The notes beneath the pieces are model-generated. The model was not told where the DNA came from. It did no database searches and saw nothing but the letters and a program-made list of their open reading frames with translations. Below, piece by piece: positions 1 through 10,102 of a stretch of 10,514 nucleotides of DNA. Position numbers and translations under genes: made by a program. Numbering within the stretch: position 1 is the first letter of the stretch; each line of letters begins with the position of its first letter. The DNA comes from Candidatus Eiseniibacteriota bacterium (GTDB lineage: Bacteria > JAFGKV01). The DNA is taken from contig JALOPK010000279.1 of assembly GCA_025453925.1 (NCBI GenBank), positions 1 through 10,514 on the forward strand, written 5' to 3'.

Positions 1-236
1 CGCCCCCGCTCGGTCTTGAGATTGAGCGAGATGCTGCGCTTGCCGCGGTTTATGGCGAAGAAGTAGAGGCTGGTGCCGTTCTTGAACGGTCCGAACGCCC
101 GGGAATCATCGCCCCGACCCGGTACCTCCACCTTGATGACGTCTGCGCCGAGATCGCTCAGGATCATGGTGCAGAATGGTCCGGCCAGGACCCGGGTGAG
201 GTCCACCACGCGAATCCCCTCAAGCGGTCGCGCCAC
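1..236 (-). CDS. Class III (CaiB/BaiF, formyl-CoA transferase family) CoA-transferase, N-terminal part
   Basis: This is the first 78 codons of a gene that runs off the left edge. The start is GTG at 236-234, preceded by a strong ribosome binding site (AAGGAGG, 6-base spacer). It overlaps the end of the molybdopterin-subunit gene by 17 bp, so it belongs to the same operon. The protein opens with [18 protein letters not shown], then [17 protein letters not shown] and [12 protein letters not shown], which is the canonical N-terminus of family III CoA-transferases (formyl-CoA:oxalate, carnitine, succinyl-CoA:acid types). These enzymes move CoA between carboxylic acids. The catalytic Asp, normally further along at about residue 170, lies outside the window, so activity and substrate cannot be judged. 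By context it may activate the acid left after the upstream enzymes act, but that is an inference. Confidence 0.9.
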
Positions 237-2452
237 GTCGACCCTCCTTCTCGATGATGGCCGACACCACCTTCTCAGCCGTGATGGGCATGGACGTGAT
301 CCGGATCCCCAAGGCGTCCTCCAGGGCGTTGGCAACCATGGGGGCGGCCGGGAGCATGGGATGCTCCCCGATGCCCCGAGCACCGAACGGCCCATCCGGC
401 TGGGGGGTCTCCACGATGATCGGCACGATCTCATCGGGAATGTCCATGGCCGTGGGAATCTTGTAGTCCGTGAAATTGGGGTTGAGGAGCCTGCCGCGCT
501 CGTCGTACCGCATGTCTTCGTAGAGCACGGTGGCGATACCCTGGACCAGTCCGCCCACGATCTGGGCCTTCACCATGCCGGGGTTGATGGCCTTCCCGGC
601 ATCCAGGGCCTCCACCACCTTCCGCACCCGCATCTGGCCGGTTTGGCGGTCCACCTCCAAGGTGAGGGCGGCGGCTCCGACCGTGTAGTGGACATTGGGG
701 TGGCCGCCCTGGCTGGTCTCGGGATCGGACTGAGACGAAGCGAACTCCGGCATGAACATGCCCCGGCCCATGACGGGCCCGCCGCGGTACGTGCCGTCGT
801 GGGTCTGAATGCCGGCGATGACGAAGTCCCGCAACGGGAGCCGGAACTCCGGACGGGTTCGGCAGCGCAGAGACTCGTCCTCCAGGTAGAAACAGTCTCT
901 GGGGATGGCGAACGCTCGCTCCGCCAGGTCCATGATCTGTTCCCGCGCATCGATCGCCGCCCGTTTCACCGCATTGCCGGTGCTCCACGTAATGTGGGAT
1001 GCCACGGTCTGCCACTCGTAAGGGTTTCGGTCGGTGTCGGGGGTCTCCACGCGGATCTTGTGCGGGGGAACGGTGAGGATTTCCGCGACGATCTGCGCCA
1101 TGACCGTGAGCAACCCCTGGCCGATCTCCATGGCGGAGATCAGGACATTGATGCTGCCGTCCTCATTGAACTTGAGGAACGCGGTGGACGACGCATTGGG
1201 CGGCATGGCGGGCGCCTTCCAGAACAGGGAGAAACCCTTGCCCACCGCCTTCTCCGGCGAAGACGGCTCCACGGCTTCTCCCCACCGGATCTCCTCCGCG
1301 ACCCGGTCGATGGCTTCCCGCAACCCGTTGGGATTCATGGCCGCTCCGTAGGCGAGAGTGTCACCCTCCCGGATCGCGTTCAGACGGCGAAAGGCTACCG
1401 GGTCCATGCTCACGGCGCGTGCCGCCTTGTCGACCACGCTCTCCAGCCCGAACAGGAACTCGGAGTAGCCGAATCCGCGGTACGGGCCGCCCGGGGGGAG
1501 GTTCGTGTACACACAGATGGAGTCGATGGAGACGTGCGGTATGCGGTAGGGGCCAGTGGCGGAGAGACCCACGGCGTTCACCACGTTGGCGCCATACTCC
1601 ACGTATGCGCCGGCATCCCATACCAGGCGGTGGGCGAGGGCCGTGATGGTGCCGTCCCGCGTGACGCCGAGGCGTAGATCGGCGCGCAGACCGAGTCGCT
1701 GGTAGGTGTTGTAGAACTCCTGTTCCCGCGACCAGCACACTTTCACTGGCCTCCCTTTCAGCCGGGCGGCCAATGCCGCCGCCAGGATCTCCATGGTGAC
1801 GCCGGCTTTCCCGCCGAACCCTCCGCCCACGTATGGCGTGATGACGCGGACGTCCTTGTGGCTGAACCCCAATGGTGCCAGGGCTTCGGCGAAGAGGTTG
1901 CGCTGCGTGTGGGGCGACTGGGAGGCCGTCCACACCGTGAGGCGGCCCGAATGATCGAAGTACGCGACGGCGCCATGGGGTTCGATGGCGCAGTGGGCGT
2001 AGCGGGGGACGGTGAATGTGCCTTCCACCACCACATCGGCCTCGGCGAATCCCTTGTCCACCACACCCTGTCGGGTTTTTCTCCAGTGGGCGATGTTGGT
2101 GCCGGCCCTGGGGAAGAACCAGGGGACGTGGGCATAGGAGCCCAGCTCGGGATGTACGAGGCCCGCCCCTTCGTCCAGCGCCTGCATCTGGTCGAAGATC
2201 GCGGTGAGCGGTTCATACTCGACGCGCACTCTCGCGGCGGCCCGTGAATACCCTGACCACCCCCGGCATGCCCTCGGCCTCGGATGCATCGATGCCCCGG
2301 ATGAGCGCGTGGGCGTGGGGGCTCTCTACGACGCAGGCATAGTGGAGATTGGGTCCGAACTCGAGGTCGTCAACAAACTGGGCGGCGCCGGCCACTTTTT
2401 CCCGGCCCTCCAGGCGCGGGGTGCTGGATCCGATGAACCGATACTCGCTCAT
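220..2452 (-). pseudogene. Xanthine dehydrogenase-family molybdopterin-binding (large) subunit, broken by internal deletion and frameshift
   Basis: The start is ATG at 2452, overlapping the 2Fe-2S subunit stop (ATGA). Residues 1-71 (MSEYRFIGSS to VRVFTG) are a normal N-terminus with SPHAHA and MPGV. The frame then meets TGA at 2215-2213. From about 2241 another frame continues AAARVRVEYEPLTAIF and runs intact for 673 residues to TGA at 222-220. The stretch normally between these points, including the VRYVGEPVA-type motif, is absent: roughly 45 residues by family memory. The rest is complete: GGGFGGK (1827-1807), PGGPYRGFGYSE (about 1494-1459), MEIGQG, and the catalytic Glu in GIGEHPM (codon 366-364). 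The loop is YRGFG, not the AYRCSFR of CO dehydrogenase, so this is a purine or N-heterocycle-type hydroxylase, not CoxL. It would be the catalytic partner of the next two genes. As written no full protein is made. The break is either a real mutation or an assembly fault. Confidence 0.88.
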
Positions 2453-2907
2453 GGCGAACCTCCCGCTGCCATCACCGCATCGATGATGGAGCGGTACCCG
2501 GTGCAGCGGCAGAGATTTCCTGCGAGAGCTTCCTTGACCTCCTCCTCGCTTGGGTGGGGGTTGTCCCGCAGCAACTCCGTGGCGGTGAGAATCACGCCCG
2601 GGGCGCAATACCCGCATTGGAACGCGTCGAGGGCGATGCACGATTCCTGGAGCGGCGTGAGGCATTCGGCCCCGACCCCTTCGAGGGTGGTGATTTCGTG
2701 GCCGGCGACTTCCACGGCGAGAATGAGACAGCTTCGTGCGCTACGTCCATCAAGCAGGACCGTACAGGTTCCGCAGTCGCCGCGATTGCAGCCTGCTTTG
2801 GGGCTCTTGATACCCAGCCGGTCGCGGAGCACATCGAGGAGCACGTCGTGTGGATCCACCGCCACGGTGCGGGCTTCGCCGTTCAGCACGAAGGTGATAT
2901 TCGTCAT
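2449..2907 (-). CDS. 2Fe-2S iron-sulfur (small) subunit of a xanthine dehydrogenase-family molybdenum hydroxylase
   Basis: This 152-residue protein has the normal family length. The N-terminal plant-ferredoxin-type domain carries C40, C45, C48 (GCNRGDCGTC) and C60 for the distal cluster. The C-terminal helical domain carries C98, C101 (QCGYCAPG) and C133, C135 (NLCRCTGY) for the cluster near the molybdenum cofactor. All eight ligands are present. It passes electrons from the Mo centre to FAD. The ATG overlaps the stop of the FAD subunit by four bases (ATGA), and its own stop overlaps the start of the molybdopterin subunit in the same way, giving the order FAD, Fe-S, Mo. No twin-arginine leader is visible, so it is probably cytoplasmic. 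Family assignment is very secure; the substrate is not determined by this subunit. Confidence 0.97.
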   Translation of the reverse strand: MTNITFVLNGEARTVAVDPHDVLLDVLRDRLGIKSPKAGCNRGDCGTCTVLLDGRSARSCLILAVEVAGHEITTLEGVGAECLTPLQESCIALDAFQCGYCAPGVILTATELLRDNPHPSEEEVKEALAGNLCRCTGYRSIIDAVMAAGGSP

Positions 2908-3794
2908 GGGAGCCTCCCGAGGGCGACAGGGCCGCGGGCATGAAGTCGCCGCACCGCCTCTCGCAATCCGCGCTCCAACATCACGCCCGCCAAGTGGCGC
3001 CGGTATGCGGCGGTGGCACGCATATCCGTGATGGGAGCGATTTCGCGCGCGAGGGCCGCGGTGGCGAGCCTCAGCACACCCTGATCCAGTACCGCGCCAT
3101 CGAGAATTGACTCGACGAACCGCGCACGCCGGGCGGCCGGGGCCAGGGCGGAGTGGGCAATCCGGTAGGTGAAGCCGTCAACAGCCATGACCGCGATTCC
3201 CGCCTGCGCCAGATCCTCACCCCGGTAGCGCCCCAGCTTCATGTAGCAGGAGGCATGGGGCTTGATCGGGCGAGGGATGGAGACCGAGACCACAAGCTCG
3301 CCGGGCTGGAGGGCAGTGATCTTGGGGCCCGTGAACCACTCGTGGATAGAGATTGCGCGGCTGCCGTGAATCGAAACCACGTGCACCTGGGCATCATGCA
3401 CGAGGAGGGCGGGACCACAGTCCAGAGAGGGGACCGCCGAGCAGAGGTTTCCCACGAGGGTCGCCCGGTTCCGGATCCCCACCGAGGCGACGGTGCCCGC
3501 GCTCTCGGCGATCAGGGGAAAGTCTGTCCGCACGGACTCCGCGCGCAGGAGGTCGGAGAACGTCGCCAGGGCGCCGATCTCCAGCTTCCCATCGGCCACG
3601 TGAAGACGCTGCAACTCGGTAATGCCCTTGATGTCAACCACGATGGAGGGTCTGGCGCGGCCTTCCTTCAGGTTCACCACCAAGTCCGTGCCGCCGGCCA
3701 GAATCGCCGCGGCCGCAGCGTGCCGGTCCATCAAGGCGAGCGCCTCGTCCAGGTTCGAGGGTCGGGCGTAGGAAAACTGGTGCACGATAGCCAT
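2904..3794 (-). CDS. FAD-binding (medium) subunit of a xanthine dehydrogenase-family molybdenum hydroxylase
   Basis: The protein has 296 residues from ATG 3794, chosen because GGAAGGAG lies just upstream and because MAIVHQFSYARPSNLDEAL is the usual family start; the open frame extends to 3854 without support. The FAD contacts are visible: ILAGGTDL at 31-38 and IRNRATLVGNLCSAVPSLD at 107-125, the second being the TIGGN-type motif with Val replacing Gly. KLGRYRGEDLAQAGIAV at 186-202 and the C-terminal CO_deh_flav_C region follow. It would accept electrons from the 2Fe-2S subunit and pass them to NAD or another acceptor. It starts 23 bp after the cyclase stop, the widest gap in the operon, and ends in an ATGA overlap with the Fe-S gene. 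The protein looks intact. Confidence 0.95.
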   Translation of the reverse strand: MAIVHQFSYARPSNLDEALALMDRHAAAAAILAGGTDLVVNLKEGRARPSIVVDIKGITELQRLHVADGKLEIGALATFSDLLRAESVRTDFPLIAESAGTVASVGIRNRATLVGNLCSAVPSLDCGPALLVHDAQVHVVSIHGSRAISIHEWFTGPKITALQPGELVVSVSIPRPIKPHASCYMKLGRYRGEDLAQAGIAVMAVDGFTYRIAHSALAPAARRARFVESILDGAVLDQGVLRLATAALAREIAPITDMRATAAYRRHLAGVMLERGLREAVRRLHARGPVALGRLP

Positions 3795-3817
3795 ACGCGC
3801 TCCTTCCGCAGCCGGGA

Positions 3818-4639
3818 TCAGTCTTCCGGCGGCGCCATCGCCACGACCCGGCACATGGACGATTCCAGTTCGATCCCGCGCAGGGGGAAGAGACCGATCC
3901 AGACCCGTCGGTTGCTCACCTTATCGATGTCGCCGCCCAGGTTCTCGGCGTGCACGAGGCGCTTGGGGAAGAGCTTCAGGTGCATCACCTGGTAGTACTC
4001 ATCGGGCGGGAACATCTCGTCCCACCGCTTCCCATGGCGTTCCATCAGCGCCCGCTCCGCCTCCAGGAAACGCTTCGGATGCCAGTCGCGGATGATCGTG
4101 TTCATCGGATGGTCCGCGCTGCCGCAGTCGACGCCGATCCACTTGAGCCGCATGTCCAAGGCCCAGGTGTGGAAATCGGGACCCGGGCCCGGATGCTTCA
4201 CGAAGTAACGGATCTCGTCTGAATCCGGCTGATCCCACGAGAACCGATGGTAGCCGGTATTGATGATGAGGATGTCGCCGGCGCGGACATCCACCTTGCT
4301 CATGAGGAGGTCGGGTGTGTAGAGGCCGTAGTCGTGCACATCCGAGGAGATGTCCACCACCACGCCGGGTCCGATCCACTCCGCAAGCGGCACCTGGCCG
4401 ATTGTGCGGCCGCTGGCGTGGAAATGGATCTCGCCGTCGATGTGGGTGCCGACATGATTGCTGGTGGTGATGATCTGGCCGTTGGCTCCCTGGCCCATGT
4501 GGGCGCCTGCCAGACGTTTGAAGTACTGGATCCCCAACGGCATGTAGCTGGGCCACGGCGGCGTGTGGACACTCAGGGGCTGGGTCAAGTCATACACGCG
4601 GACCCTGTCCATGAAGCTCAAGAAGTCATCAGTGCGCAT
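3818..4639 (-). CDS. Cyclase-family metal-dependent hydrolase (PF04199, kynurenine formamidase/isatin hydrolase superfamily)
   Basis: The protein has 273 residues. The ATG at 4639 has AAAGGAG about six bases upstream and lies inside the end of the DUF1116 gene (22 bp overlap). DLTQPLSVHTPPWP near residue 17 is the family start, and HVGTHIDGEIHF at 62-73 is the metal-binding signature, giving H62, H66, D68 and H72. The Pro usual two residues after the Asp is Glu here. A second conserved block, VDCGSADHPMNT, falls around residue 174. Members of this family hydrolyse amide bonds of formamides or small cyclic amides and imides with a divalent metal. Placed between a carbamoyltransferase-like trio and a molybdenum hydroxylase, it plausibly opens a hydroxylated heterocycle, but the substrate is unknown. 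It is somewhat longer than KynB (about 210 residues), so it is not KynB itself. There is no signal peptide. Confidence 0.9.
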   Translation of the reverse strand: MRTDDFLSFMDRVRVYDLTQPLSVHTPPWPSYMPLGIQYFKRLAGAHMGQGANGQIITTSNHVGTHIDGEIHFHASGRTIGQVPLAEWIGPGVVVDISSDVHDYGLYTPDLLMSKVDVRAGDILIINTGYHRFSWDQPDSDEIRYFVKHPGPGPDFHTWALDMRLKWIGVDCGSADHPMNTIIRDWHPKRFLEAERALMERHGKRWDEMFPPDEYYQVMHLKLFPKRLVHAENLGGDIDKVSNRRVWIGLFPLRGIELESSMCRVVAMAPPED

Positions 4640-6054
4640 GATTGCTCCTTTCCGGGAGGCGAGGCGAGGGCGAGGGCCAACGCCTCCGCGGCGGCGAGGA
4701 ACGGTTCGATGGGTGCCTCGACCACGCCGGCCCCCACCTGCCCGACCCCCGGTTCGCGATGGGCGACGCCGGTATCAATGAACGGCCGGATACCCGTGCG
4801 GGCCACCTTGATCACGTCGATACCCACCGGCGTCCCCCGGAAATCAAGACTGGGGATTCGGTAGGCGCCGTGCTCGGCGGCGGTGATCTCGTACATCGCG
4901 AGGGTGAAACCCGAGGCATCCTGGGCGGTGCCACCCACGAATTGGACGATGGCCGGGGCAGCCGCGATGGCGAAACCGCCCAGCCCGCCTGTCTCGGTAA
5001 TGGCGCTGTCGCCGATGTCGGGATTGGCGTCGGCCTTGGAGAAACCGGGGAAGAACAGCGCGTCGGGCACCGGCGCGGGCGCGGTGAACCACGCATCGCC
5101 CGTCCCGCTCACCTGCACGCCGAATTCCGTGCCGTTGCGGGCCATTGCCACGGCGATACTGCTGGCCGGGATCCCACGGGCGGCATCCAGACTCGCCTTG
5201 CAGGCAGCCATGGAGAGGTTCAGGAAGAAGTGATCGTTTCGGTCAATGAACCGCAGGACCGCCGCGGCGGTGTCGGGCCTGCATGTCTCCACCAAAGCGG
5301 GGGCCACGGCGCGATAGAACAGCGATGTCGCCGCCCGATTCCGGTTGTGCACTTCGTCTCCCATGTGCAAAGCCTGGGCGATGAGAGCGCGCAGGTCCAC
5401 GGCCCCGAGCCGCTCCAGGCCGGCCTGAAGCGCGGGATACAATGTGCGCTCCATCCAGCGCAGCCGTTCGATGACATCGGCTCCGTAGGCGCCGTACCGA
5501 AGGACTTTGCCCAAGCCCTCGTTCATGGTGCAATGGGCGCGGGTGCCGTGCTCGATGTCCTCGACGACGAACACGGGCATGGAAGATGAGATGATGCCTG
5601 CCATCGGACCCACCGCGGCATGCTCGTGACACGGCGCGAAGCGAACCGCCCCCGATGCCGCCAATCGTTCCGCTTCATCCGGGCTGGCCGCGCGCTTCTC
5701 GTGCAACAAAGCGCCCATGACCGCGCCGCGCATGGGACCGCACATCTGCTCCCAGGTAACGGGCGGCCCGGCATGGAGGAGAGTGTCCGGCGTCATGCCG
5801 GGGATGCAGTCCCGGGCGATCCCCATGCCCGCGAGATGGGGTCGCGCCGCCATGATGCGGGCCACCGCAGTCTGGTTGGCCGCGGCGATCGTGTCGGCAT
5901 GCCGCCGGAACACGGCCATGACCTCGGGCGAGAGCGCGGGCGGCCGCCACTCCACCTGGAGAGCGCTTCCCCCGGCGGCCCGAATGCCGTCACAGAACCA
6001 CGGCAGCCCGATGTTGACCACCGCCGGAAGACGATCAAGGAGACCAGGCCTCAT
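4618..6054 (-). CDS. allG: DUF1116 protein, AllG/YlbE-type subunit of an oxamate carbamoyltransferase-like complex
   Basis: The protein has 478 residues from ATG 6054. That start overlaps the fdrA stop (ATGA) and has GGGGAGG upstream; an in-frame extension to 6195 would lie inside fdrA and shows no family character. Landmarks are VVNIGLPWF at 12-20, HAGPP at 94-98, CGPMRGAVMGALL at 105-117, FAPCHEHAAVGPMAG at 139-153, LGKVLRYGAYG at 181-191, ALHMGDEVHNRNRAATSLF at 228-246, NDHFFLNLSMA at 273-283, MARNGTEFG at 304-312 and DIGDSAITETGGLGGFA at 346-362. The family is highly conserved and this copy appears full length. In E. coli YlbE (AllG) is reported to work with FdrA and YlbF as oxamic transcarbamylase. 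Family membership is certain; the same reaction here is inferred from the complete trio and could differ in acceptor. Gene order is DUF2877, FdrA, DUF1116, with ATGA overlaps between them. Confidence 0.93.
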   Translation of the reverse strand: MRPGLLDRLPAVVNIGLPWFCDGIRAAGGSALQVEWRPPALSPEVMAVFRRHADTIAAANQTAVARIMAARPHLAGMGIARDCIPGMTPDTLLHAGPPVTWEQMCGPMRGAVMGALLHEKRAASPDEAERLAASGAVRFAPCHEHAAVGPMAGIISSSMPVFVVEDIEHGTRAHCTMNEGLGKVLRYGAYGADVIERLRWMERTLYPALQAGLERLGAVDLRALIAQALHMGDEVHNRNRAATSLFYRAVAPALVETCRPDTAAAVLRFIDRNDHFFLNLSMAACKASLDAARGIPASSIAVAMARNGTEFGVQVSGTGDAWFTAPAPVPDALFFPGFSKADANPDIGDSAITETGGLGGFAIAAAPAIVQFVGGTAQDASGFTLAMYEITAAEHGAYRIPSLDFRGTPVGIDVIKVARTGIRPFIDTGVAHREPGVGQVGAGVVEAPIEPFLAAAEALALALASPPGKEQSCALMTS

Positions 6055-7452
6055 GCGGGCCTCCCCGGGACGATGGTGGCGGCCAGGTAGGCGGCAGCGG
6101 CATTGGAGGGCGCCACCAGCGCCCCCGCGTCTCCCAGCGCACGTTCCACCGCAGACCTGCATTGCGGGTCGCGTTCCGTGCCGGTGACCGCGCATACCAC
6201 CGCGAGTCGCCGTCCTTGCCGGGCAGCCGCGGCACAGGTGGCACGGATGGCGGGAGCCAGTTCCGCGGCCGGATCAGGGTGGGCGCCGTACCCCAGCACC
6301 ACATCCAGCAGCATCACGGCCACGCCGGGATCCGCCGCCTCCTGCATGATCCTGCGGCATCGCAGGGAGTAGTCAATCATCGGATGCGGCCTTCCGACGG
6401 TGAACTCGTCAGCGCCAAGATCCAGCACCGTGTGCCCTGTGCTGGTCCAGGTATCCGCCAAGGATGAACCACCGACATTGCCGTGGACAAGTCCAAGATG
6501 GGGCGCCATCACCGCGGCAGCCTCACTGCAGAGCGTGCCCCCGCTGAAAAGACCCCTGACGAACCGCTGACAGGGGAGAAAGCCCCGCCTCGCCTCCGCC
6601 GCCGCGGTATCCAACTCAGCCATCCGGGAGGCGAGAAGGGATCCGATGGCGGCGGCGCCTTCGCCCCTGGCCAGCATCGACGCGGCGATGCCCGCCTCCT
6701 CCAAGGTTGCCGCGCAGTATGCCCAGGGGCCGGCTGCGCCCGGCCTACCTCCCATGAACGCCGTCACCACGGGCTGGGCTGCTCCCGCGGCCTCGGCGGC
6801 GATGGCGGCTGTCACGTCAGGGTCGGGAGGCTTCGAGATGAGTACAATCACGCCGGTCGCGGGATCGCATGCCAGCAGGCGAAGCGCTTCCAGGAACATG
6901 ATGCCACCGACTTGGCGGCCGGCGTCGCGCCCGCCCACCCCGATGGCAAGCGAGATGCCGGTCCCCAGATTGGAGACGACGGTGCTGACCTCCTGGAGAC
7001 CCGTCCCGGACGCCGACACGATGCCGACGGATACTCGATTCACCACATTGGCGAATACCGGCTTCGAAGGCCTCGTCCGCGGCGAACCGGCCCGGGACGG
7101 AGATCAGCGCCAAGGAGGCTCCCTGGAGCCGGGCGGCTCCTGCCGCGAGGGTCCTCGGCGCATCCGGCGCGCGTGGCGCGGAATCCGCGTGCAGCATCTC
7201 ATCCAGCGCCGCAGCCGCCATGTCGGCAGCCTTTGCGTCTTCCGCCTCGATCGCCACCAGCAGGTCGTCCGGGCCGGCCGCTTCCATCTGCGGCGTGAGG
7301 AGCCCGGCGGATTTGAGGATCTCCTTGTTTGTGGGCGTGCCCATGACCAACGCGACATCCCGGACGCCCGGCGTTCCCTTGAGCCGCTTCGCCGCGGCCA
7401 TGAGCGCCACCGAATCGAAGTAGGAGCCGGCGAGGACGATGCCGTGAATCAT
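6051..7452 (-). pseudogene. fdrA: FdrA (AllF), succinyl-CoA synthetase alpha-like subunit, broken by internal deletion and frameshift
   Basis: The start is ATG 7452, overlapping the DUF2877 stop (ATGA). Residues 1-132 match FdrA: MIHGIVLAGSYFDSV, MGTPTNKE at 38-45, DLLVAI, ALISVPGRFAADEAFEAG. The frame is then lost at about 7053-7060 and a +1-shifted frame resumes at FANVVNRVSVGIVSASGTGLQEV (from 7055), running intact through GGRDAGRQVGGI, SKPPDPDV, LFSGGTLCSEA, DEFTVGRPHPMID, LLLDVVLGYGAHPDPA and VTGTERDPQCRS to TGA 6053-6051. The missing piece is the second half of the first Rossmann-like domain, ending in the MGPDCGTA motif, about 48 residues compared with my memory of E. coli FdrA. The C-terminal half could start at GTG 7046 but has no Shine-Dalgarno. 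The family is CoA-ligase-like and reported as a subunit of oxamate carbamoyltransferase. The flanking genes are intact, so the damage is either recent or an artefact. Confidence 0.9.
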
Positions 7453-8318
7453 GAAAGCGCCCTTTCCAGGGTACAGAACATGCCGGTCAATAGATCGGCG
7501 CCCGAAGTGGCGCCCATCCGGAGGAGCCGGTCGCCATGGGCGCTGACCGCCGCGCCGTCACCGCGCGAAAGTCCTTCGACAAGGGCCTTTACGGGCGCCG
7601 CGAACGATCCCTCCGCCGCCATGGTCAGCGCGGTGCCCGAGAGGAGGGTAGTCTGCGGAGTGTGCCGGCGGAACTCGGCGAAAGGCATGACGAATCGATC
7701 TATCCCGAGCCAGGCGAGCACGTGCCGCGCGGCGAGGTGCCCGACGAGGAAATCGTCGCCGCCCGGGGTGAGGCCGATGCCGGTCCCGCAGAGCCTCCGC
7801 ACCCCTTCGGCTTCCCTTCCGCCAAACAGGAGTTGAACCCCTCTCTCGATCTCCTGGTTGCAGGGGATCTCAAACCCGCACCGCACCGGCGCATCCTCGT
7901 GGAGCAGCCATGCCAGACTCCCGGCCGGGGCGCGGGCTGCCATGTCTTCCCTGCTCACCGCGACCAGGCCGCGCACACTCCGGTCGTCTGCTGCGCCCAA
8001 GTCCAGGCGGGAACACCACCTGTAGGTCGGGACGAGGAGAAAGCGGCGGCCTCCCACCAGGAGCCGCTCGTCGTGTATGCTCAGCGAGGACTCCTGAACC
8101 ACGGTAAGATCCCGCAGAACGACATTCACCGGCCCGTTGCCCACGCCCTCGTCCACCACGGAGACCGTCACTCTCTCACCCACAAAGTTCACTGCGTGGC
8201 GGAAACGCGAGTGGACGGCGTAGGTCCCCGGGGCGATTCTGTCGCCCCAGGAGACAACCGGAGCCAAAGCGCCAGGCTGACTTATGTTGGCGTCGGAACC
8301 CCACGATCGGGCGCGCAT
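7449..8318 (-). CDS. allH: DUF2877 protein, AllH/YlbF-type subunit of an oxamate carbamoyltransferase-like complex
   Basis: This is the first gene of the operon: 289 residues from ATG 8318 with GAAGGAG six bases upstream. The DUF2877 signature GTGIGLTPGGDDFLVG is at 178-193, followed by PQTTLLSGTAL at 221-231 and GATSGADLLTGM at 269-280, the usual C-terminal block. The N-terminal half (about 1-150) is beta-rich and poorly conserved, as is normal for the family. Length is close to E. coli YlbF (about 270). In E. coli this protein is reported with FdrA and YlbE as part of oxamic transcarbamylase; its own contribution is not clear. The stop overlaps the fdrA start (ATGA). There are no membrane segments or signal peptide, so it is probably cytoplasmic. 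The frame is intact. Confidence 0.88.
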   Translation of the reverse strand: MRARSWGSDANISQPGALAPVVSWGDRIAPGTYAVHSRFRHAVNFVGERVTVSVVDEGVGNGPVNVVLRDLTVVQESSLSIHDERLLVGGRRFLLVPTYRWCSRLDLGAADDRSVRGLVAVSREDMAARAPAGSLAWLLHEDAPVRCGFEIPCNQEIERGVQLLFGGREAEGVRRLCGTGIGLTPGGDDFLVGHLAARHVLAWLGIDRFVMPFAEFRRHTPQTTLLSGTALTMAAEGSFAAPVKALVEGLSRGDGAAVSAHGDRLLRMGATSGADLLTGMFCTLERALS

Positions 8319-8555: not shown

Positions 8556-9872
8556 TTAGTTCGTGACGACCACCCTGGCTGCAACGTCTCTGCCGCCCGC
8601 GGCAAGCCGCACGACGTACAGCCCCGGCGCCACACGGGCACCGGTGTTGTCGGCCAGATCCCACACGAGGGTGTGGAACCCCGCGTTGGAGGATTCCGGG
8701 AGCAGCCGGCGCACTTCGCGGCCGGCTACATCGAAGACCGTCAGAGAGATCGAACCGCTCACGGGCACCGAGTAACGTAACGTGACGTCTCCCGCCGACG
8801 GGCACGGCCGAGCCGGCTCCAGGTGAAGCGCCGTGGGCGCGCCCCATGTGGTGGGAACCGACACGCTCACGGGAGAGTGGAAACGCTCGATGCCGGAGAG
8901 GGAGACATCCGACAGCGTGTAGCGATAGGTCGTGCCGGCAGCGACATCCCGATCGACGTGCTCATAGGTGTGGGGGACCGCAGTCGTGCCTGCGCCGGGG
9001 ATCATTCCATCGGTGATCACTTCCTCGCGCCCATCGACGATGCGGCGGATACGGAACCCCGCGTTCTGAGTCTCGGACGCCGTCGTCCAGGAGAGAAGCA
9101 CGCCGTCGCGGGTGGTCTGGGCGGAGAAGTCCAGCAGCTCGACCGGCGTGACTTGCCCCATGTGCCCGCCCTGGAGGATCTCCTTGGTGGCATCGTCCTG
9201 CAGGAAGGCGACGATGGTGCAATCGCGATCACGCCATCCCGCGGGTATCTGGAAGGGCAATTGGAGGGAGACCATCTCCCCGGAGGGGAGGTTCACCGGC
9301 GTGCCCGCAGCCGAGGGGAAGATGTGGAGCGCGGTGAAGTAGAGATGATCGAACCCCTGCCAGTTGTACGTCGAATCATCGCCCGTCGCCACGCACCGCA
9401 GGCTGGCCGAAAGGTCGGGACTCCCGGGCTCATTGGAGATCTGGACATTGACCATGCCGTCTCCGGTGGCCCCGTCATAGGCAAGCAGCGTCAGGTCCAG
9501 CGTGGCCGGGCTCGCCACACCCTCGCGCTGGTTGTAGTATGGCACGTAGTTGACCGGCTGTACGTCGCCGCCCAGGACTCTGACGATGCCGTCGAACATG
9601 ACGGTTGGATACCCGGTGACTGTATAGTAGTTCTTCCGATCGACACAGCCCGCGACCTGAAACACGTCGCTGACGTGATACGCCACCACGGCAAGCCGGT
9701 CTCCAACCTGTTGCTCGAGATTGTAGAGGCCCTCCATAGCCGAAGGGCACCAGCCGCACCAGGTGCCGGTGAATTCCTCACCCACCACGGTGCGCAGCGC
9801 GGCATCGACCGTCACTGGGACGGCCAACGAGAGGGCAAGCAAAGAAGCAAGCAGCGGGAGACGGACCTTCAT
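8556..9872 (-). CDS. Exported Omp28-like/thioredoxin-fold protein with fibronectin-III-like and FlgD-like Ig C-terminal domains
   Basis: The protein has 438 residues from ATG 9872, chosen because GAAGGAGGG lies upstream and a signal peptide follows at once; a TTG-started extension to 9914 has no support. The Sec signal is 1-24 (basic MKVR, hydrophobic LLASLLALSLAV, cleavage after VDA). A thioredoxin-like domain follows: EEFTGTWCGWCP with C39 and C42, and the cis-Pro loop GYPTVMFDG with P89. Residues 120-235 form the beta-rich region seen in Omp28-related proteins. A region at 247-340 (LLDFSAQTTRDGVLLSWTTA) resembles fibronectin III. The end at 355-438 (SLTVFDVAGREVRRLL, AGFHTLVWD, APGLYVVRL) is a FlgD-like Ig or type IX-style sorting domain. 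It is likely exported and surface-attached. The role of the CGWC pair (disulfide exchange or structural) is not settled. It has no evident link to the catabolic operon. Confidence 0.88.
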   Translation of the reverse strand: MKVRLPLLASLLALSLAVPVTVDAALRTVVGEEFTGTWCGWCPSAMEGLYNLEQQVGDRLAVVAYHVSDVFQVAGCVDRKNYYTVTGYPTVMFDGIVRVLGGDVQPVNYVPYYNQREGVASPATLDLTLLAYDGATGDGMVNVQISNEPGSPDLSASLRCVATGDDSTYNWQGFDHLYFTALHIFPSAAGTPVNLPSGEMVSLQLPFQIPAGWRDRDCTIVAFLQDDATKEILQGGHMGQVTPVELLDFSAQTTRDGVLLSWTTASETQNAGFRIRRIVDGREEVITDGMIPGAGTTAVPHTYEHVDRDVAAGTTYRYTLSDVSLSGIERFHSPVSVSVPTTWGAPTALHLEPARPCPSAGDVTLRYSVPVSGSISLTVFDVAGREVRRLLPESSNAGFHTLVWDLADNTGARVAPGLYVVRLAAGGRDVAARVVVTN

Positions 9873-10102
9873 CACGGGTTTCCCTCCTTCCGGTCGTCTG
9901 AACCCCTTGCACAACGCTGGCTGTCAATGACGTGCACCGCCAGTCGTTCGCCGCGGGATGAGCTTGCGCCGCGCCCATCGCCCTCGACCCGCACGGCACC
10001 CCGGCAACCGAGAGGCACTGCGGTGTCGGCACCCCTCAGTGGCCGCCGCGGGGGAAGGGCGCGGAGGAAGCATCATTCCTCCATTCCTCACAATGGGAGC
10101 AC

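Follow-up and report, generated by a model that had tools for sequence, protein, structure and literature searches.

The window analysed here is a 10,514-nt stretch of DNA, the complete contig JALOPK010000279.1 (C316 in our set) of a Candidatus Eiseniibacteriota metagenome-assembled genome (MAG; GCA_025453925.1, 3.9 Mb, 82% complete), whose phylum contributes three genomes to our set. Its minus strand carries an eight-gene operon, in the order allH, allF/fdrA, allG, a PF04199 hydrolase gene, the FAD, 2Fe-2S and molybdenum (Mo) subunit genes of a hydroxylase, and a class III CoA-transferase gene. We propose that this operon probably encodes an oxidative, energy-conserving pathway of uracil (pyrimidine) degradation that yields carbamoyl phosphate, a reading drawn from gene content and sequence comparison. 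It concerns the operon in its intact form, as in the sister genome (Candidatus Fermentibacteria bacterium Zod_Metabat.355, termed G001, with its operon at locus L010); of the eight genes, two are disrupted in the window's assembly.

We infer the substrates and reactions of all steps as follows. The three-subunit Mo hydroxylase would oxidise uracil at C6 to barbiturate, whose ring the PF04199 hydrolase would open to give malonurate (ureidomalonate), an acylurea like oxalurate. AllFGH, acting as a carbamoyltransferase, would split malonurate with phosphate into carbamoyl phosphate and malonamate. A carbamate kinase whose gene lies elsewhere in the genome could use the former to make ATP; an amidase of the amidase-signature or nitrilase family, encoded by neighbouring genes in many relatives, could convert the latter to malonate and ammonia. 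The class III CoA-transferase, or in some relatives a ligase resembling malonyl-CoA synthetase, would then form malonyl-CoA. With slightly less confidence, we consider it likely that this is an oxygen-independent uracil route of at least 15 mostly uncultured phyla, leading from the Mo hydroxylase through a PF04199 barbiturate hydrolase that is not related to known barbiturase and an AllFGH malonurate carbamoyltransferase to ATP and malonyl-CoA. The initial annotation of this DNA knew of no described pathway with this combination, and we found none in the full-text literature searched (open-licence papers; subscription journals and preprints lay outside its scope).

Co-occurrence of the operon genes across phyla

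Gene content, protein families, the hydrolase fold, co-occurrence and cross-phylum conservation were all computed. GTDB contigs were scanned with an AllG alignment, giving 80 named loci, and loci were searched with hidden Markov models made from the operon's own proteins. Because the scan kept only those matches nearest to the window's AllG, we added a second sample of 386 genomes, where the PF04199 subfamily was called at E ≤ 1e-100.

Of 34 AllG loci with 6 kb or more of sequence on either side, 27 contain PF04199 together with the Mo subunit gene. A total of 66 fetched loci combine AllG, PF04199 and Mo-hydroxylase genes. Their phyla number at least 15 and include Elusimicrobiota, Cloacimonadota, Verrucomicrobiota, Kiritimatiellota, Bdellovibrionota, Bacteroidota, Chlorobiota, Ignavibacteriota, Caldisericota, Spirochaetota, Chloroflexota, Bipolaricaulota, Eiseniibacteriota, Effluviviacota and Fermentibacterota. 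In the 386-genome sample AllG was found in 41 genomes and the PF04199 subfamily in 31, with both in 30 (Fisher p = 2e-34). PF04199 and Mo genes are adjacent in half of the AllG loci of this sample (21/42, one genome having two loci); for some of the remaining loci PF04199 sits elsewhere in the genome. The notion that chance placed these genes side by side, or that they act in separate pathways, is refuted by these counts, AllG being present in 30 of the 31 genomes with the subfamily, and by the recurrence of the same gene set in shuffled orders across phyla. The initial annotation had held that rare co-occurrence would speak against its outline of ring hydroxylation, ring opening, carbamoyl phosphate release and CoA activation; the strong co-occurrence across phyla instead supports that outline.

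A full carbamate kinase gene occurs in 32/41 genomes with AllG versus 98/345 without (p = 9e-10), usually unlinked to AllG. It is present in seven of eight cluster genomes checked singly, the eighth being that of the window, which has a short fragment only. Among the same eight, allantoinase (TIGR03178) exceeds its cut-off in one, the window's genome falling below it, and profile assignment of the operon proteins found no allantoinase, AllC or AllD in the window's operon; the lack of allantoin-branch genes, already remarked upon in the initial annotation, thus stands.

In a quick tree of AllG, all rows with a PF04199 and Mo context fall inside a 100-row group with support 92, to which neither E. 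coli AllG nor the AllGs linked to carbamate kinase belong (branches outside the group are long). In L011, from a genome of the window's family (G002), the genes are arranged differently, and the AllG of this locus clusters with the AllG of G014, a genome of another lineage, and not with the window's; these two features suggest horizontal exchange.

Substrate and reactions

Uracil is a product of both cytosine deaminase and uridine phosphorylase, and genes for such enzymes are found in variant loci. L114 has the order allH, allF, a PRTase-like gene, allG, an aldehyde:ferredoxin-oxidoreductase-family gene, cytosine deaminase, PF04199 and uridine phosphorylase, the deaminase (421 bits) and phosphorylase genes directly flanking PF04199. 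The solved structure nearest to this deaminase is the E. coli CodA-type cytosine deaminase (295 bits, against 216 for the next family); at 293 bits the phosphorylase exceeds the TIGR01718 cut-off of 280. L135 repeats the arrangement with GNAT and thiolase genes added. Two more loci have a CodA-like deaminase gene: L079, one gene away from PF04199 and CoA-transferase, and L081, where it separates allH from allF. A yeast-type cytosine deaminase, unrelated to the CodA type (1UAQ-type chains score 110 bits and the next family 60), comes first in a row with a malonyl-CoA-synthase-like ligase, PF04199 and an amidase in L141. Because uracil-releasing enzymes sit in these variant loci, we propose narrowing the operon's substrate to uracil; this is compatible with the initial annotation, which had left it open among purine, pyrimidine or similar rings. 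The variant loci tie uracil to PF04199 and AllFGH, one step removed from the Mo enzyme, since L114 and L135 are without that enzyme and L127 has one of another subfamily.

A conserved protein of about 360 residues is encoded 0–18 bp from AllG in L114 (7903-8982), L092, L100, L102, L115, L121 and L129; a weak PRTase-CE match was obtained for one member only.

The operon encodes all three subunits (FAD, 2Fe-2S and Mo-cofactor) of a xanthine-oxidase-family hydroxylase. The active-site Glu of the GxGE motif (E740 in L010 numbering) is invariant in 12 orthologues, and the window reads GIGEHP here. No NCBIfam equivalog cut-off is reached by the Mo subunit. Among solved structures it is nearest to 4-hydroxybenzoyl-CoA reductase; CO dehydrogenase, quinoline oxidoreductase, and aldehyde and xanthine enzymes rank lower. 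These scores and structures give no tight grouping with aldehyde oxidation, which the initial annotation had named as evidence that would tell against it. Two specific assignments were rejected: aerobic CO dehydrogenase, where the subunit's loop YRGFGYSEF aligns with that of the enzyme and the AYRCSFR Cys loop is absent, and xanthine dehydrogenase, for which the best XdhA match, obtained with the longer fragment of the broken window gene, scores 431 bits, short of the 780-bit cut-off.

Genes of the aldehyde:ferredoxin-oxidoreductase family (PF02730/PF01314) occur at L114:10477-12369, L135:2532-4445, L092:9967-11586 and L102:2-1621, after AllG or before the deaminase, at the place of the Mo hydroxylase in other clusters. 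Replacement of the Mo hydroxylase by a tungsten enzyme in these four loci is possible.

The PF04199 protein has the metal motif HxGTHxD, with H62, G64, T65, H66 and D68 invariant in 44 aligned homologues. Its structure model (predicted local distance difference test score 91.5) is closest to isatin hydrolase (Z 23.3, 3.0 Å over 232 residues), followed by kynurenine formamidases (Z 21-22). Isatin hydrolase (PF04199; 4J0N, 4M8D, 5NMP) shares the fold and the motif and opens a cyclic amide, although the operon protein is only about 21% identical to it and the substrate pocket is not matched to isatin. The PF09663 barbiturase (AtzD/Bar) family is found in none of the 31 genomes with the PF04199 subfamily and in 3 of the 11 AllG genomes without it; in G140 and G275 its gene does not adjoin AllG, PF04199-subfamily or Mo genes. 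In G087 (L149:1-4574), AllG, a Mo subunit of AYRGAGR type and an AtzD-family ring-opening amidase form one row.

Two unrelated amidase families recur in the clusters, which suggests that the carbamoyltransferase leaves an amide: an amidase-signature protein is encoded beside the CoA-transferase in nine loci of the first set, and CN-hydrolases occur in clusters of Elusimicrobia and several other lineages. For acid activation, the CoA-transferase matches the NCBIfam models of CoA:oxalate and formyl-CoA transferases best, without reaching their cut-offs. AMP-forming ligases in L127 and L141 match malonyl-CoA synthase best (488 bits versus 387 for the next model, and 387 versus 368, respectively), neither reaching the model cut-off of 558. 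The L127 row (L127:3791-16202, genome G085) comprises the ligase, FAD, FeS, amidase, AllF, AllG, Mo and AllH genes and a permease with the motif E-N-I-G; tandem PF04199 homologues lie elsewhere in that genome (C86).

CoA-transferase III is present in 19/66 loci and thiolase in 16/66, never together (p = 0.0018). The thiolase is usually accompanied by OB-fold and GNAT-fold proteins, and the GNAT fold was confirmed. This trio of GNAT, SCPx-type thiolase and ChsH2-type OB-fold proteins, alternating with the CoA-transferase, is seen at L012:1085-3368, L024, L029, L060, L108 and others; examined for its role, it yielded no convincing function.

NCS2 permeases in loci with PF04199 and Mo genes have the motif E-N-T-G or E-N-I-G, with E-N-N-S in two Anaerolineae loci, and two permeases adjoining AllFGH loci without PF04199 or Mo genes have Q-N-I-G. 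In the purine transporter UapA, a change from Gln to Glu at the motif site leads to recognition of uracil, hypoxanthine and guanine (PMC5972032). The L025 permease matches the uracil permease model best (344 versus 205 bits for xanthine permease). Because the xanthine permease model gives the higher score for the permeases of L013 and L110, this line is supportive of uracil as the likely substrate, not decisive.

Several observations weigh against a uracil pathway of the proposed form. The L013 and L110 permeases prefer the xanthine over the uracil model despite their E-N-I-G motif. L114 and L135 carry the aldehyde:ferredoxin-oxidoreductase-family gene, not a Mo hydroxylase; the L127 Mo enzyme belongs to another subfamily, with an AYRGAGR-type motif; and L141 is without a Mo gene. 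Substitution of the thiolase, with its GNAT and OB-fold partners, for the CoA-transferase in 16/66 loci is something that a malonyl-CoA ending does not explain. No amidase was found in the window's own contig, and none adjoins the operon. Finally, the product of the PF09663 gene of G087 resembles cyanuric acid hydrolase more than barbiturase: of the specificity residues inspected (R195, T321, R325, A345 and G346 in AtzD numbering), four of five are those of cyanuric acid hydrolase, so that this gene, at first sight decisive for barbiturate, lends it weak support.

Two other kinds of substrate are improbable. The same chemistry could act on another pyrimidine, thymine or a substituted uracil, passing through 5-methylbarbiturate and methylmalonurate to methylmalonyl-CoA. 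All of the permease and enzyme evidence is compatible with either uracil or thymine, NCS2-family uracil permeases can carry thymine (PMC6308229), and the GNAT-thiolase variant could handle a different acyl-CoA; yet the cytosine deaminase and uridine phosphorylase of the variant clusters supply uracil, and the ligases have malonyl-CoA synthase as their best match. We rate as equally unlikely a purine or hydantoin-type ring, from which the Mo enzyme would make xanthine, urate or parabanate for the hydrolase to open, with AllFGH acting on oxalurate and the CoA-transferase handling oxalate. Oxalurate is indeed used by E. coli AllFGH (PMC11326118), the oxalate-type matches of the CoA-transferase, below cut-off as they are, fit such an ending, and some cluster permeases score as xanthine permease. 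Against this, allantoinase is over its cut-off in only one of the eight genomes checked, oxalyl-CoA decarboxylase is not among the recurrent neighbours, the cluster AllGs group separately from those of E. coli and of loci linked to carbamate kinase, and uracil-producing enzymes are located in variant clusters. Mo hydroxylases, moreover, are not known to make parabanate in one step. On the allantoinase counts, the AllG tree and the uracil-producing enzymes of the variant loci, we rejected the allantoin/oxalurate pathway as the main role.

Relation to known systems

An oxidative route from uracil through barbiturate to malonate and urea has long been described and is considered rare; PMC3758960 (citing Soong 2001, 2002) attributes to Rhodococcus and Nocardia a uracil dehydrogenase, a barbiturase and a ureidomalonase. 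The pathway proposed here would share the logic of uracil, barbiturate, ureidomalonate and malonate. It differs in that the PF04199 hydrolase would stand for the AtzD/Bar-fold barbiturase, absent from all 31 genomes with the PF04199 subfamily, and in the fate of ureidomalonate, split by water into urea and malonate in the Rhodococcus/Nocardia route but, by our proposal, by phosphate into carbamoyl phosphate and malonamate here.

E. coli AllFGH gives carbamoyl phosphate from an acylurea, oxalurate being formed or split (PMC11326118). The operon has the same three subunit families as this allantoin branch (AllFGH with AllK; PMC11326118, PMC9843812), and would share with it phosphorolysis of an acylurea to carbamoyl phosphate followed by carbamate kinase. 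Unlike the E. coli branch, it has no allantoinase, AllC or AllD neighbours, its AllG belongs to another subgroup and carbamate kinase is usually unlinked; a Mo hydroxylase, a PF04199 hydrolase and a CoA-transferase are present instead. The allFGHK clusters of comammox bacteria and ammonia-oxidizing archaea likewise place allFGH outside enterobacteria, but adjoin biuret/triuret genes and allK, and the relevant portion of PMC12625717 reports no Mo hydroxylase or PF04199 gene there.

Like the reductive, Rut and URC pathways (PMC12507026), the operon is proposed to break down uracil; unlike theirs, its chemistry would be oxidative and end at malonate. No marker genes of these three pathways are among the recurrent neighbours of the clusters. 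A gene of D-hydantoinase/dihydropyrimidinase type lies several kb away in five loci.

If the proposal is correct, it points to genes that may encode a uracil-oxidising hydroxylase, a barbiturase of a second kind and another activity of AllFGH, and it would give Elusimicrobia, Cloacimonadota, Kiritimatiellae, Fermentibacteria, Bdellovibrionota and other uncultured bacteria a fermentable, ATP-yielding nucleobase diet. Because the PF04199 subfamily is present in 30 of the 41 sampled AllG genomes, the label 'oxamate carbamoyltransferase' on DUF1116/FdrA genes is probably wrong for many genomes. Each proposed step is open to assay with purified enzymes and commercial substrates.

State of the operon in the window

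Pfam and NCBIfam profiles confirmed the eight-gene minus-strand operon and the families assigned initially: the carbamoyltransferase trio, the three-subunit Mo hydroxylase, the PF04199 hydrolase and the class III CoA-transferase (Table 1). The junctions, read from the sequence, are ATGA overlaps at allH/allF, allF/allG, FAD/FeS and FeS/Mo, longer overlaps at allG/PF04199 and Mo/CoA-transferase, and a 23-nt gap at PF04199/FAD; the first description, of eight co-directional genes linked by ATGA overlaps or gaps of at most 23 bp, therefore holds.

Table 1. Genes of the operon in the window, with the profile matches that identify them
Gene product	Position	Strand	Evidence
AllH-like (DUF2877, PF11392) carbamoyltransferase subunit	7449..8318	-	PF11392 77 bits; ATGA overlap with allF; 48% identity to sister genome
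AllF/FdrA-like carbamoyltransferase subunit, interrupted	6051..7452	-	PF00549; PRK06091 94 + 285 bits in two frames
AllG-like (DUF1116, PF06545) carbamoyltransferase subunit	4618..6054	-	PF06545 330 bits; 76% identity to sister genome
PF04199 metal-dependent ring-opening hydrolase (proposed barbiturate hydrolase)	3818..4639	-	PF04199 115 bits; HxGTHxD; isatin-hydrolase-like model
FAD subunit of Mo hydroxylase (CoxM/XdhB type)	2904..3794	-	PF00941 158 bits, PF03450 54 bits
2Fe-2S subunit of Mo hydroxylase (CoxS/XdhC type)	2449..2907	-	PF01799 99 bits, PF00111 31 bits
Molybdopterin subunit (proposed uracil hydroxylase), interrupted	220..2452	-	PF02738 268 + PF20256 234 bits in one frame; PF01315 in another
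Class III CoA-transferase, N-terminal part (contig end)	1..236	-	GTG start overlapping Mo gene; PF02515 102 bits, profile positions 1-74

Three of these genes are incomplete, caveats absent from the initial annotation. The CoA-transferase gene is cut by the contig end after its first 78 codons, which cover 74 PF02515 profile positions; the full orthologue in L010 has 395 residues and scores 445 bits. The AllF, AllG and AllH subunits are encoded together, with allF interrupted here and intact in the sister genome. A two-frame break at ~7055-7060 removes from allF the counterpart of residues 132-180 of the sister protein (about 49 residues, about 143 nt), and a similar break at ~2237-2241 removes from the Mo subunit that of residues 73-114 (about 42 residues, about 131 nt). 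The intact sister orthologues are AllF of 517 residues (L010:9138-10688) and the Mo subunit of 787 residues (L010:3167-5527).

Comparison of the two species shows purifying selection on the coding parts flanking each break: the ratio of nonsynonymous to synonymous substitution rates (dN/dS) on the two sides is 0.32 and 0.21 for AllF, and 0.10 and 0.11 for the Mo subunit. Since selection is purifying on either side and rpoB is intact in the MAG, each break is either a recent deletion or a local assembly error. That the operon is a decaying remnant in this organism, with allF and the Mo subunit as pseudogenes, we regard as doubtful though far from fanciful. Two frame-breaking deletions within eight genes are what such decay would leave; but the coding parts of the operon hold no further stops, the measured flanks have dN/dS values of 0.10-0.32, and a pair of similar-sized deletions in one short contig fits assembly error equally well. 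The intact rpoB also speaks against decay, though it does not decide the matter.

Beside the operon, at 8559-9914 on the minus strand of the window, lies a gene for an apparently exported protein with a CGWC motif near its N-terminus and an FlgD Ig-like domain at its C-terminus. The sister genome encodes a protein about 71% identical in the same place beside its operon (L010:11752-13143).

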